Shown here: in pieces, positions 58,054-61,724 of the stretch | How positions within the stretch are numbered: the stretch's first letter is position 1 | Layout: every line of letters starts with the position of its first letter | From: Alphaproteobacteria bacterium | GTDB lineage: Bacteria; Pseudomonadota; Alphaproteobacteria; ATCC43930; CGMCC-115725 | Direction of reading: 5' to 3' | DNA: 64,000 bases | Assembly: GCA_030041335.1 (NCBI GenBank) | Contig: JASHOB010000057.1 | Span: forward strand, 1 to 64,000 | Program-made: the position numbers and the translations under genes | The notes under the pieces: model-generated | Database searches by the model: none | What the model was told of the DNA's origin: nothing | The model's input: only the letters and a program-made list of their open reading frames with translations

Positions 58054-60756
58054 CTAAGCTGCCTTTACCATATGACGCAGCACATATTGCAGGATGCCGC
58101 CATGGCGGAAATATTCGAGTTCGTCGAGCGTGTCGATCCGACACCGAACCTGGATCGTCTCGGTCGTACCATTGGCGCGATGGACCTGGCACGGCAGCTC
58201 GATCCGTGGCTTAAGGCCCGTCCTGATGTTGAGAATGTCGAATTTCTCCGTGCCGTCGAGCTTGAGGGTCTGCCGGTTCATGCCGCGGGTGAATTCAAGC
58301 GGCAGCACGCCCATGCCGATCAAATTGGAGCGATGGATGCGCTCGATGCTCTCGGCGATGACCGCACGCACGCCCAAGAGGCGTGTCCCTTTCGCGGCCC
58401 AGTCGCGCGACGACCCCATGCCGTAATCCTTTCCGGCGATGATCACCAGCGGCACGCCCGCGGCTTGATAGAGCATCGCCGCGTCGTAGATCGGCATCAC
58501 CTTGCCGTCGGGCTGATGCTTGGTCATGCCGCCCTCAATGCCCGGCACCATTTCGTTGCGAATCCGGATATTGGCGAAGGTGCCCCGCATCATCACCTGG
58601 TGATTGCCGCGGCGTGAACCGTAGGAGTTGAAATCCAGCGGCCGTACCTGGTGCTGCAAAAGGAAGGTGCCGGCCGGGCTGTCGACCTCGATGCTGCCCG
58701 CGGGCGAGATGTGATCGGTGGTGACGCTGTCGCCGAGAACCGCGAGCTCGCGCGCCTCGATCACGTCGGCGAGGGCGGGCGGCTCCTTCGGCATGTCGAC
58801 GAAATAGGGCGGTTCGGCGATGTAGGTGGAACCGCTGTCCCAGGTGAAAGTGGTGCCGCCGCCGACCTCGACCTTCCGCCATTCCTCCGGGCCCTTGAAG
58901 ACATCGCCGTAGCGCCGGCGGAACATCGCCGGGGTGAGGCTCCTGGCGATCGTGGCGTCGATCTCCTGGCGCGACGGCCAGATGTCGCGCAGGAAAACCG
59001 GCGTGCCGTCATCACCGCGGCCGAGCGGCTCGTTGACCAGGTCGAGCTTGACCGACCCCGCCAGCGCATAGGCGACGACCAGCGGCGGCGACGCCAGGTA
59101 GTTGGCCCGCACCTGCGGGTGGACGCGGCCCTCGAAATTGCGGTTGCCCGAGAGCACGGCGGCAACCACCAGCTCTTCCCGGTCGATGGTCTCGGCGATC
59201 GGCTCGGGCAGCGGGCCCGAATTGCCGATGCAGGTGGTGCAGCCATAACCCACGAGGTTGAAGCCCAGCGCATCGAGATCCTTGTTAAGACCCGAGGCCT
59301 CGTAATATTCCGTCACCACCTGGCTGCCCGGCGCCAGCGACGTCTTGACCCAGGGCTTGACCTTGAGGCCGCGCCGCAACGCGTTGCGTGCCAGGAGCCC
59401 GGCCGCCAGCATGACATTGGGATTGGACGTGTTGGTGCAACTCGTGATCGCAGCAATCACGACATCGCCGTCCTTCAGCGCATAATTCGTGCCCGGCACG
59501 GGCGCGGGCCCGCCGGTCTTGGCCTGGACGCGATTGGCGGCGAGTTTCGGCGCCTCGGCCGCGAAGCCCGCGGCCACCCCGCCCAATACCACGCGATCCT
59601 GCGGTCGCCGTGGTCCGGCCATCGCCGGCTCGACGTCTTTCAAATCAAGGGTCAGCGTATCGGTGAACAGCGGATCGGGCATGGCGGCGTCGTGCCACAG
59701 GCCTTGGGCCTTGGCATAGGCCTCGACCAGCGCGACCTGGGCGGCGTCGCGGCCGCTGAACCGGAGATAGTTCAAAGTCTCGGCATCGATCGGAAAAAAT
59801 CCGCATGTCGCGCCATATTCGGGCGCCATGTTGGCGATGGTTGCCCGATCGGGGAGGCTGAGGGCACCGAGGCCCGGACCGAAAAACTCGACGAATTTGC
59901 CAACCACGCCCTTCTTGCGCAGCATTTGCGTCACCGCCAGCACCAGATCGGTCGCGGTAGCGCCCTCGCCGAGCCTGCCGTCGAGGCGGAAGCCTACGAT
60001 CTCCGGCAGCAGCATGGAAATCGGTTGGCCCAACATTGCCGCTTCGGCTTCGATACCGCCAACGCCCCAGCCGAGAACGGCAAGGCCGTTGACCATGGTG
60101 GTGTGACTGTCGGTGCCGACGAGGGTGTCGGGATAGACAATGGTGCGACCGTTCTCTTCCGCGCGCCATACCACCCGTGCCAGATATTCGAGATTGACCT
60201 GATGGCAAATGCCGGTGCCCGGGGGCACGACGCGGAAATTGTCGAACGCCTCCTGGCCCCACTTCAAAAAAGCATAGCGCTCGTGATTGCGCTCGAATTC
60301 CAACGCGACATTGCGGCGAAAGGCGCGCTCATTGCCAAAGACATCGACCATGACCGAATGGTCGATGACGAGATCGACCGGCGATAGCGGATTGATCCGC
60401 TTCGGATCGCCGCCGAGCTTGACCATCGCTTGACGCATCGCCGCGAGATCGACCACCGCCGGCACGCCGGTAAAGTCCTGCATCAGCACCCGCGCCGGGC
60501 GAAACGCGATCTCGCGGTCGGACCGGCGGTCTCCGAGCCAGGCGGCAACCGCCTTGACGTCAGCAATCGACACCGTCGTGCCGTTTTCCAGCCGAACCAG
60601 ATTCTCGAGCAGCACCTTCATTGAATAGGGCAGGCGGGACAGGTCGCCGAGCTTGGCCTTTTCGCCCGCCGCGGGCAGGCTGAAATAATCGTAGTCCTTG
60701 CCATCAATCGTAAGAGTTGTCCTCGTCCCCAGCGAATCTTGTCCGGTAACTGACAC
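58054..60756 (-). CDS. acnA: Aconitate hydratase A
   Basis: The 900-residue enzyme interconverts citrate and isocitrate in the TCA cycle. It is the AcnA/IRP type. Cluster cysteines lie in [10 protein letters not shown] and [12 protein letters not shown], and substrate residues in [12 protein letters not shown] and [16 protein letters not shown] use the GTG at 60756 because a GGGGAGG ribosome site lies 8 bases upstream; the frame to 60786 is not supported. It is divergent from the structured RNA/ccm region. Confidence 0.96.
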
Positions 60757-61070
60757 GGGATTTGCCTCCCCTCTCGACAGCGGCAATGCGCAACGATAGA
60801 AACCGTAGCATAGGCATTGTTGCGGACGCTATGTCGCACCGCGCCGCACCCCGGGGCATGTCGCGGCGGGCGAAAAAACCATCATTTCGCCATCATTTCA
60901 TCGAACCACCGACAGATTCGGTTTTCATATTTTGCCGCAGGGACGATCTTATCGTCTCTTACCTCCGTAGCGGTCCATCCCCCCGACCGCTCGTCTCTGC
61001 GGCCCCGGTTTCCCCCAACCGGGGCCGTTACCTTTTGTGCGCTCGCGATCCCCGGTATCATCGGGTCACC
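60757..61070. other. Divergent region between acnA and ccmA
   Basis: The left part has the acnA ribosome site and presumably its promoter. The middle is AT-rich (60870-60935: runs such as AAAAAA and TTTTCATATTTT). The right part holds three consecutive perfect hairpins (separate entry), followed 43 bases later by the ccmA start. No ORF is supported. Confidence 0.5.
60938..61036 (+). ncRNA. Candidate small RNA or leader with three hairpins and terminator
   Basis: Three consecutive stem-loops occur. The first is GACGAT/ATCGTC (60942-60956), extendable to 8 pairs. The second is AGCGGTC/GACCGCT (60969-60991) with loop CATCCCCCC. The third is an 11-pair stem (61000-61027) with loop TCCCCC, followed by TTACCTTTT. 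The loops and linker (ACCTCCG, CCCCCC, CCCCC) are pyrimidine-rich and could pair with ribosome sites, as in the alphaproteobacterial CCUCC-loop sRNAs. An AT-rich CATATTTT lies just upstream as a possible -10. It is either a free sRNA or an attenuator of the ccm operon. Confidence 0.5.
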
Positions 61071-61724
61071 ATGGCAGACGAAACCAGGGCCGCGTTTGCC
61101 GGCAGCGATCTCGCCTGTCGGCGCGGCGAGCGTTTGATTTTCGCGGGCCTCGATTTCGCGTTGCCGGCGCGCGGTGTCTTGCTTCTGCGCGGCCCAAACG
61201 GCAGCGGCAAATCGAGCCTCTTGCGCCTGATGGCGGGTCTGTCACCGCCTGAAGCCGGCGTCATCAGCTGGAACGGCGACGGCATCTTCGACGATGCTGG
61301 CGCCCACCGCGCGCGGCTTCACTTCATCGGACATTCCGACGCCATAAAGCCGACGCTGAACGTCTTGGAGACACTTTCCTTCTGGGCGGAGATGCGTGGC
61401 AGCGGCGCAGCCGTTCCGGCAGCGCTCACGCATTTTCGCCTGTCCCGTCTTGCGCTGTTGCCGTGTCGCTTCCTGTCGGCGGGCGAGCGCAAACGTCTGG
61501 CACTCGCGCGCTTGATCGCAAGTCCGGCCACGCTCTGGTTGCTGGATGAGCCCACCACCAGTCTCGATGCCGCCGGCACGGAAGATTTGCTCCGCGCCAT
61601 CACGGCGCATCGCGCCGCCGGCGGGCGGGTCGTTATCGCCAGCCACGGGCCGCTCTCGCTCGAAAATGCGATGACTTTGGCGCTCGACGACTACACGCCC
61701 CGCGCCCGCGCGATCGCGGCGTGA
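61071..61724 (+). CDS. ccmA: Cytochrome c maturation ATPase CcmA
   Basis: The 217-residue ABC ATPase, with CcmB, drives release of holo-CcmE during heme delivery. It has Walker A LLRGPNGSGKSS, a signature-like FLSAGERKRLALARL, Walker B LWLLDEPTTSLD and the switch ASHGP. The ATG at 61071 is weakly preceded (TCGGGTC). Upstream in-frame sequence covers the hairpin region and is not coding. Its TGA overlaps the ccmB GTG. Confidence 0.95.
   Translation: MADETRAAFAGSDLACRRGERLIFAGLDFALPARGVLLLRGPNGSGKSSLLRLMAGLSPPEAGVISWNGDGIFDDAGAHRARLHFIGHSDAIKPTLNVLETLSFWAEMRGSGAAVPAALTHFRLSRLALLPCRFLSAGERKRLALARLIASPATLWLLDEPTTSLDAAGTEDLLRAITAHRAAGGRVVIASHGPLSLENAMTLALDDYTPRARAIAA

Follow-up and report, generated by a model that had tools for sequence, protein, structure and literature searches.

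The well-studied small RNAs (sRNAs) of Alphaproteobacteria that carry anti-Shine-Dalgarno sequences come from the Rhizobiales and the Rhodobacterales. The ar14 RNA forms three hairpins, and the motif CCUCCUCCC is present in the unpaired region of each of them (PMC10746234). NfeR1 is known to silence ntrB through redundant anti-Shine-Dalgarno loops (PMC10746234). In the SmelA075/099 families, CCUCCUCCC loops are carried on variable stems (PMC3927594). The 6C RNA of Actinobacteria is made up of two stem-loops with at least six C each (PMC8388888), and IsrR of Staphylococcus, which binds to Shine-Dalgarno regions, has three C-rich regions (PMC9410917).

The DNA considered here is a stretch of 64,000 nucleotides from an alphaproteobacterium, referred to as the window. 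In the spacer between its acnA and ccmA genes lies an element of three hairpins, for which structure, conservation, compensatory evolution, C-rich loops, a recurrent place before ccmA and a recurrent -10 motif were computed. The element is real, conserved and structurally constrained. With a probability of roughly 0.6, it is an uncatalogued, independent sRNA gene with C-rich loops, which would act in trans on G-rich ribosome-binding sites in the manner of alpha-r14, 6C and IsrR.

Structure of the element

The three hairpins and the TACCTTTT that follows them (Table 1) are seen in the sequence itself as well as in both the minimum free energy (MFE) and the centroid structures. This agrees with an earlier note on this DNA, in which three consecutive stem-loops with the loops CTT, CATCCCCCC and TCCCCC were described. 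The stem length given there was right for hairpin 2 (7 pairs), while hairpins 1 and 3, put at 6-8 and 11 pairs, are slightly longer (9 and 12). The stem of hairpin 3, GCGGCCCCGGTT-TCCCCC-AACCGGGGCCGT, includes a basal G-U. The segment ACCTCCG was expected to be single-stranded between stems 1 and 2, and ACCTCC is indeed unpaired at 60961-60966 in the predicted fold. The T-rich end that had been assigned to the last stem, shortly before ccmA, is also present as TACCTTTT, with the ATG of ccmA 42 nt past the stem. The MFE is -65.6 kcal/mol, compared with -48.6 +/- 4.1 kcal/mol for shuffled sequences (z -4.17), and none of the 200 shuffles was equally stable.

Table 1. Features of the acnA/ccmA region, in window coordinates.
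Feature	Position	Strand	Description	Basis
acnA, aconitate hydratase	58054..60756	-	divergent neighbour; GTG start 60756	NCBIfam AcnA models; start from sequence
TTTCGCCA block	60885..60892	+	possible regulator or promoter site (putative function)	family alignment
CATATT	60926..60931	+	candidate -10 of the small RNA; weak	by eye
Hairpin 1	60939..60959	+	9 pairs including one G-U; AGGGACGAT-CTT-ATCGTCTCT	fold
Linker TACCTCCGT	60960..60968	+	single-stranded; anti-Shine-Dalgarno CCUCC	fold, family comparison
Hairpin 2	60969..60991	+	7 pairs; AGCGGTC-CATCCCCCC-GACCGCT	fold, alignment
Hairpin 3 + TACCTTTT	60999..61036	+	intrinsic-terminator-like, C-rich loop; hairpin ends at 61028	fold, terminator scan, alignment
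GGTATCATC	61054..61062	+	candidate -10 of a separate ccmA promoter	family alignment, motif discovery
ccmA, haem ABC exporter ATPase	61071..61724	+	followed by ccmB and ccmC	TIGR01189, 201.9 bits (cutoff 131.6)

Conservation in the family

Relatives were collected by blastn, pattern and covariance-model searches. Within its family, the element almost always stands immediately 5' of ccmA, also in genomes where acnA is not adjacent, and its copy number in its own genome is one. At the place of hairpin 1, a hairpin is predicted in all 11 family members, with a differing sequence and no C-run. The linker of most family relatives contains a CUCC-like motif.

The two C-loop stems are preserved by paired changes. 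The arms of hairpin 2 are AGCGGTC/GACCGCT in almost all relatives; the exceptions are one relative with AGCGATC/GATCGCT and one with CGCGGTT/GACCGCG. Compensatory changes are counted in 2 of its 7 pairs, and the C-run of its loop is kept across the family. The arm of hairpin 3 reads GGCCCCGG, GGCCTTGG or GGCCTCGG, and its 3' arm changes to match; of the 11 pairs counted here, 4 have compensatory changes. Taken together, in a sequence-only alignment of 12 members (A4), all 214 of 214 cells of these stems are paired (100%), and two-sided changes are seen in 6 of the 18 pairs. When this alignment was slid, only 21-54% of the cells were paired, and 0-1 of 500 shuffles came as high. A second alignment, in which 37 matches were fitted to a model, is in agreement (98% paired; 15/17 pairs), even as it leans towards its model and includes two overlapping matches on opposite strands (L018, L021). 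Thus, the search for conservation and covariation in relatives, which had been proposed as the check, favours the element: the stems are kept, and compensatory changes are present.

In one genome of the family, a match to the model R2 lies away from ccmA (L019:1501-1566, minus strand). Its neighbours are a phenylacetate-CoA-ligase-like gene on one side and, on the other, a PTS-IIA-like gene that follows a response-regulator gene, all named by their translations. The RNA may, therefore, occur detached from ccm too.

Occurrence before ccmA across the class

Class-wide genome searches with R2 and the 6C model score just a few of the candidates in each genome, and absences in them mean little; for this reason, a survey anchored on ccmA was used instead. 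The gene was located via CcmB, and the 300 nt upstream were scanned for hairpins with C-rich loops. In 93 loci, 69 such hairpins were found in the sense orientation and one in the antisense, where about seven are expected from dinucleotide shuffles, and 24 of the 93 loci have at least two. These loci comprise 17 relatives, mostly recruited by searches with the element, and an independent part of 76 named records, among which are several Azospirillum species. The named loci alone hold 40 hairpins, a rate 17 times that of the remaining, mostly coding parts of these loci. A further 96 genomes across the class, fetched by CcmB alone, gave 34 hairpins in sense and one in antisense. Just 24 of these 96 have at least one C-rich-loop hairpin before ccmA, which counts against the sRNA gene as the main reading; the window's own family has at least one in 15 of its 21 resolved loci.

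Outside the family, the stem sequences are unrelated. Shared descent across the class, thus, rests on position and design and not on sequence similarity. A CCUCC-like motif is present 5' of the first C-hairpin in 34 of 70 loci, a count without a control.

Probable transcription units of the element and of ccmA

The RNA would be about 100 nt long and directed towards ccmA, with a promoter near 60926-60938 and its end at hairpin 3, near 61036. If CATATT serves as the -10, the RNA would start near 60937-60939. The promoter scan reported no sigma-70 consensus and no strong promoter 5' of hairpin 1, which counts against an sRNA gene, and the promoter of the small RNA is therefore an inferred one. 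About 45 nt 5' of the RNA, the TTTCGCCA block is conserved in 11 family relatives, even in those without an adjacent acnA. The T-run after hairpin 3 is interrupted (TACCTTTT), which also counts against an sRNA gene. A coding reading, or an extension of ccmA, was considered and rejected. Although the frame has no stop in the window, in-frame stops interrupt it in 9 of the 11 family members.

Another kind of explanation is a leader acting in cis. Here, the ccmABC transcript would start before hairpin 1, and a haem, iron or redox signal would control its attenuation at hairpin 3, while a protein or another RNA would bind the C-loops. Such a leader is unlikely, though some points favour it: the element stays with ccmA even where acnA is not its neighbour, the linkage reaches across the class, and the terminator-like hairpin 3 ends 42 nt 5' of the start codon. 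One point against it is a promoter motif. By motif discovery in the 70 nt before ccmA, an extended -10 box, TGCTATAG, was obtained with a log-likelihood of 102, compared with 18-24 for shuffles. Of the 70 loci with C-hairpins, 41 have it 3' of the terminator or of the last C-hairpin, against 15% in shuffled sequence. Moreover, no conserved antiterminator was seen: the obvious candidate, a loop C-run paired with GGGG in the arm of hairpin 3, does not survive in the relatives with GGCCTTGG or GGCCTCGG stems. The spacing from terminator to ATG also ranges from 19 to more than 100 nt. The attenuator of ccmA that the earlier note had offered as a second option is thus weakened by the recurrent motif 3' of the terminator.

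Since TGCTATAG recurs between the terminator and ccmA, the element is probably a transcription unit of its own. Transcription of ccmA probably starts 3' of the terminator, as judged from these motifs, and the ccmABC genes would then be expressed from their own promoter rather than through a leader. In the window and its nearest relatives, the family alignment has a conserved GGYAYnATC-like block where other orders have TGCTATAG, and the window's own candidate, GGTATCATC, has no score with this class-wide motif, a further point against a separate sRNA gene.

In Azospirillum species (L115, L125, L131, L133, L134, L138), a near-identical extended -10, TGCTATAGCA, is located around 40-50 nt before ccmA. 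It is likely to be a ccm promoter.

The C-rich loops and their possible role

For the proposed sRNA, it is suggested that hairpins 2 and 3 act as rigid stems on which the C-runs of the loops are displayed, while CCUCC is offered by the linker after hairpin 1. Small RNAs that base-pair with Shine-Dalgarno sequences are built in this way, and an anti-ribosome-site mechanism is proposed on that ground. The exposed C-rich segments would pair with the G-rich ribosome-binding sites of several mRNAs, the translation of which would be blocked. Transcription, action in trans and targets are all putative at this stage. Within the window, the predicted partners are start regions with G-runs, and acnA ranks 5th of 46. 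As a target, acnA was set aside: its complementarity is strong here, but the relatives have ordinary AGGAG-type sites. As the complementarity is not conserved, no target is claimed, and no conserved target was found among the start regions of the window and the acnA start sites of the relatives. Two points go against an sRNA. Many G-rich start sites would be open to pairing with C-loops of this kind, and for an RNA acting purely in trans, the linkage with ccmA is unusual.

It may also be argued that the hairpins are a mere array of terminators or insulators that keeps the transcription of the divergent region out of ccm, the C-loops being a by-product of GC-rich stems. Hairpin 3 is strongly terminator-like, and GGCC-stem terminators with C-loops do exist elsewhere in the class (L033, L039); even so, such an array is improbable. 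Hairpin 2 lacks a T-run, but compensatory change has preserved its stem, and the C-run is still present in its loop. The roughly 17-fold density of C-loops before ccmA does not suit a by-product either. Of the roughly 900 hairpins in the whole 64 kb window, just 9 have a CCCC loop, and no two of these are adjacent except hairpins 2 and 3; the remaining terminator-like hairpins are without C-loops. A sponge RNA, whose loops would sequester either a protein or some G-rich RNA and not the ribosome-binding sites of mRNAs, would fit the near-invariant sequence of the loop and hairpin 2 in the family and has a precedent in an alphaproteobacterial sRNA sponge (PMC12559287), but it is highly improbable.

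An independent sRNA gene is, thus, the preferred reading, and a wider role can be imagined for it. The element could belong to an uncatalogued sRNA family that became fixed before the cytochrome c maturation operon in many families of Alphaproteobacteria, where its poly-C loops would coordinate the supply of haem or c-type cytochromes with the translation of mRNAs with G-rich starts, as a functional counterpart of IsrR or 6C. This extension is doubtful. The preferred reading itself, if right, would add to Alphaproteobacteria a widely conserved sRNA at a recurrent genomic position and link the maturation of cytochrome c with a regulator of the C-rich-loop kind. It would also suggest that C-loop sRNAs originated repeatedly, in Actinobacteria, Firmicutes and Alphaproteobacteria, for the targeting of ribosome-binding sites. 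A new Rfam family would follow, which could be tested in cultured Azospirillum.

Comparison with known RNA families

No known RNA at this locus was found in the literature searched. The earlier note could not match the element to a specific family, and Rfam scans in gathering and E-value modes likewise gave none at threshold. The closest family is the 6C RNA (RF01066), which scores 32.4 bits on hairpins 2 and 3 in E-value mode, with a gathering cutoff of 47; the relatives reach 33-43 bits, below the cutoff in every member scanned. The FsrA model gives 25 bits against the relatives (cutoff 80). For ar14 (RF02344), there is no match in the window, nor in its own genome even at E 0.1, and the best ccmA-linked relative attains 30.3 bits (gathering 58.8).

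Two further observations concern other loci. One genome of the same family (G006) has three sub-threshold ar14-like matches, at L271 and two other places, of up to 38.4 bits. In an alphaproteobacterial genome, a 6C-like double hairpin of 45.7 bits (cutoff 47) lies beside a polysaccharide-deacetylase-like gene (L009:1501-1572, minus strand); this 3 kb locus has no ccmA, ccmB or acnA match.

The element shares with 6C RNA its two successive C-rich-loop stems. Loop 2 contains seven C, six of them consecutive, and loop 3 has five C here and five to seven in the family relatives. Unlike 6C RNA, the element belongs to another phylum, has an extra first hairpin and is linked to ccmA, and the resemblance is inferred to be probably convergent. 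With the iron-sparing sRNAs IsrR (Staphylococcus) and FsrA (Bacillus), it has in common a terminator and C-rich regions that lie in loops and next to a stem; it differs from them in that there is no homology and no iron-regulated promoter motif was recognised at the element.

The likeness to alpha-r14/NfeR1 that was pointed out earlier holds for the general design, in view of conservation, covariation and position, and fails for membership in ar14, given the scores and the loops. Unlike alpha-r14, the element has plain C5-C6 loops in which the CCUCCUCCC motif is absent, with CCUCC in the linker only, a hairpin 1 without a C-run and a single copy before ccmA. As in alpha-r14/NfeR1 (RF02344 ar14; SmelA075/SmelA099; the CcsR-like RNAs of R. 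sphaeroides; and the cuckoo RNAs), three hairpins, anti-Shine-Dalgarno loops and variable stems come together in an alphaproteobacterial RNA. There is good support for a regulatory RNA that follows the general plan of alpha-r14/NfeR1, with C-rich loops of the anti-ribosome-site kind.
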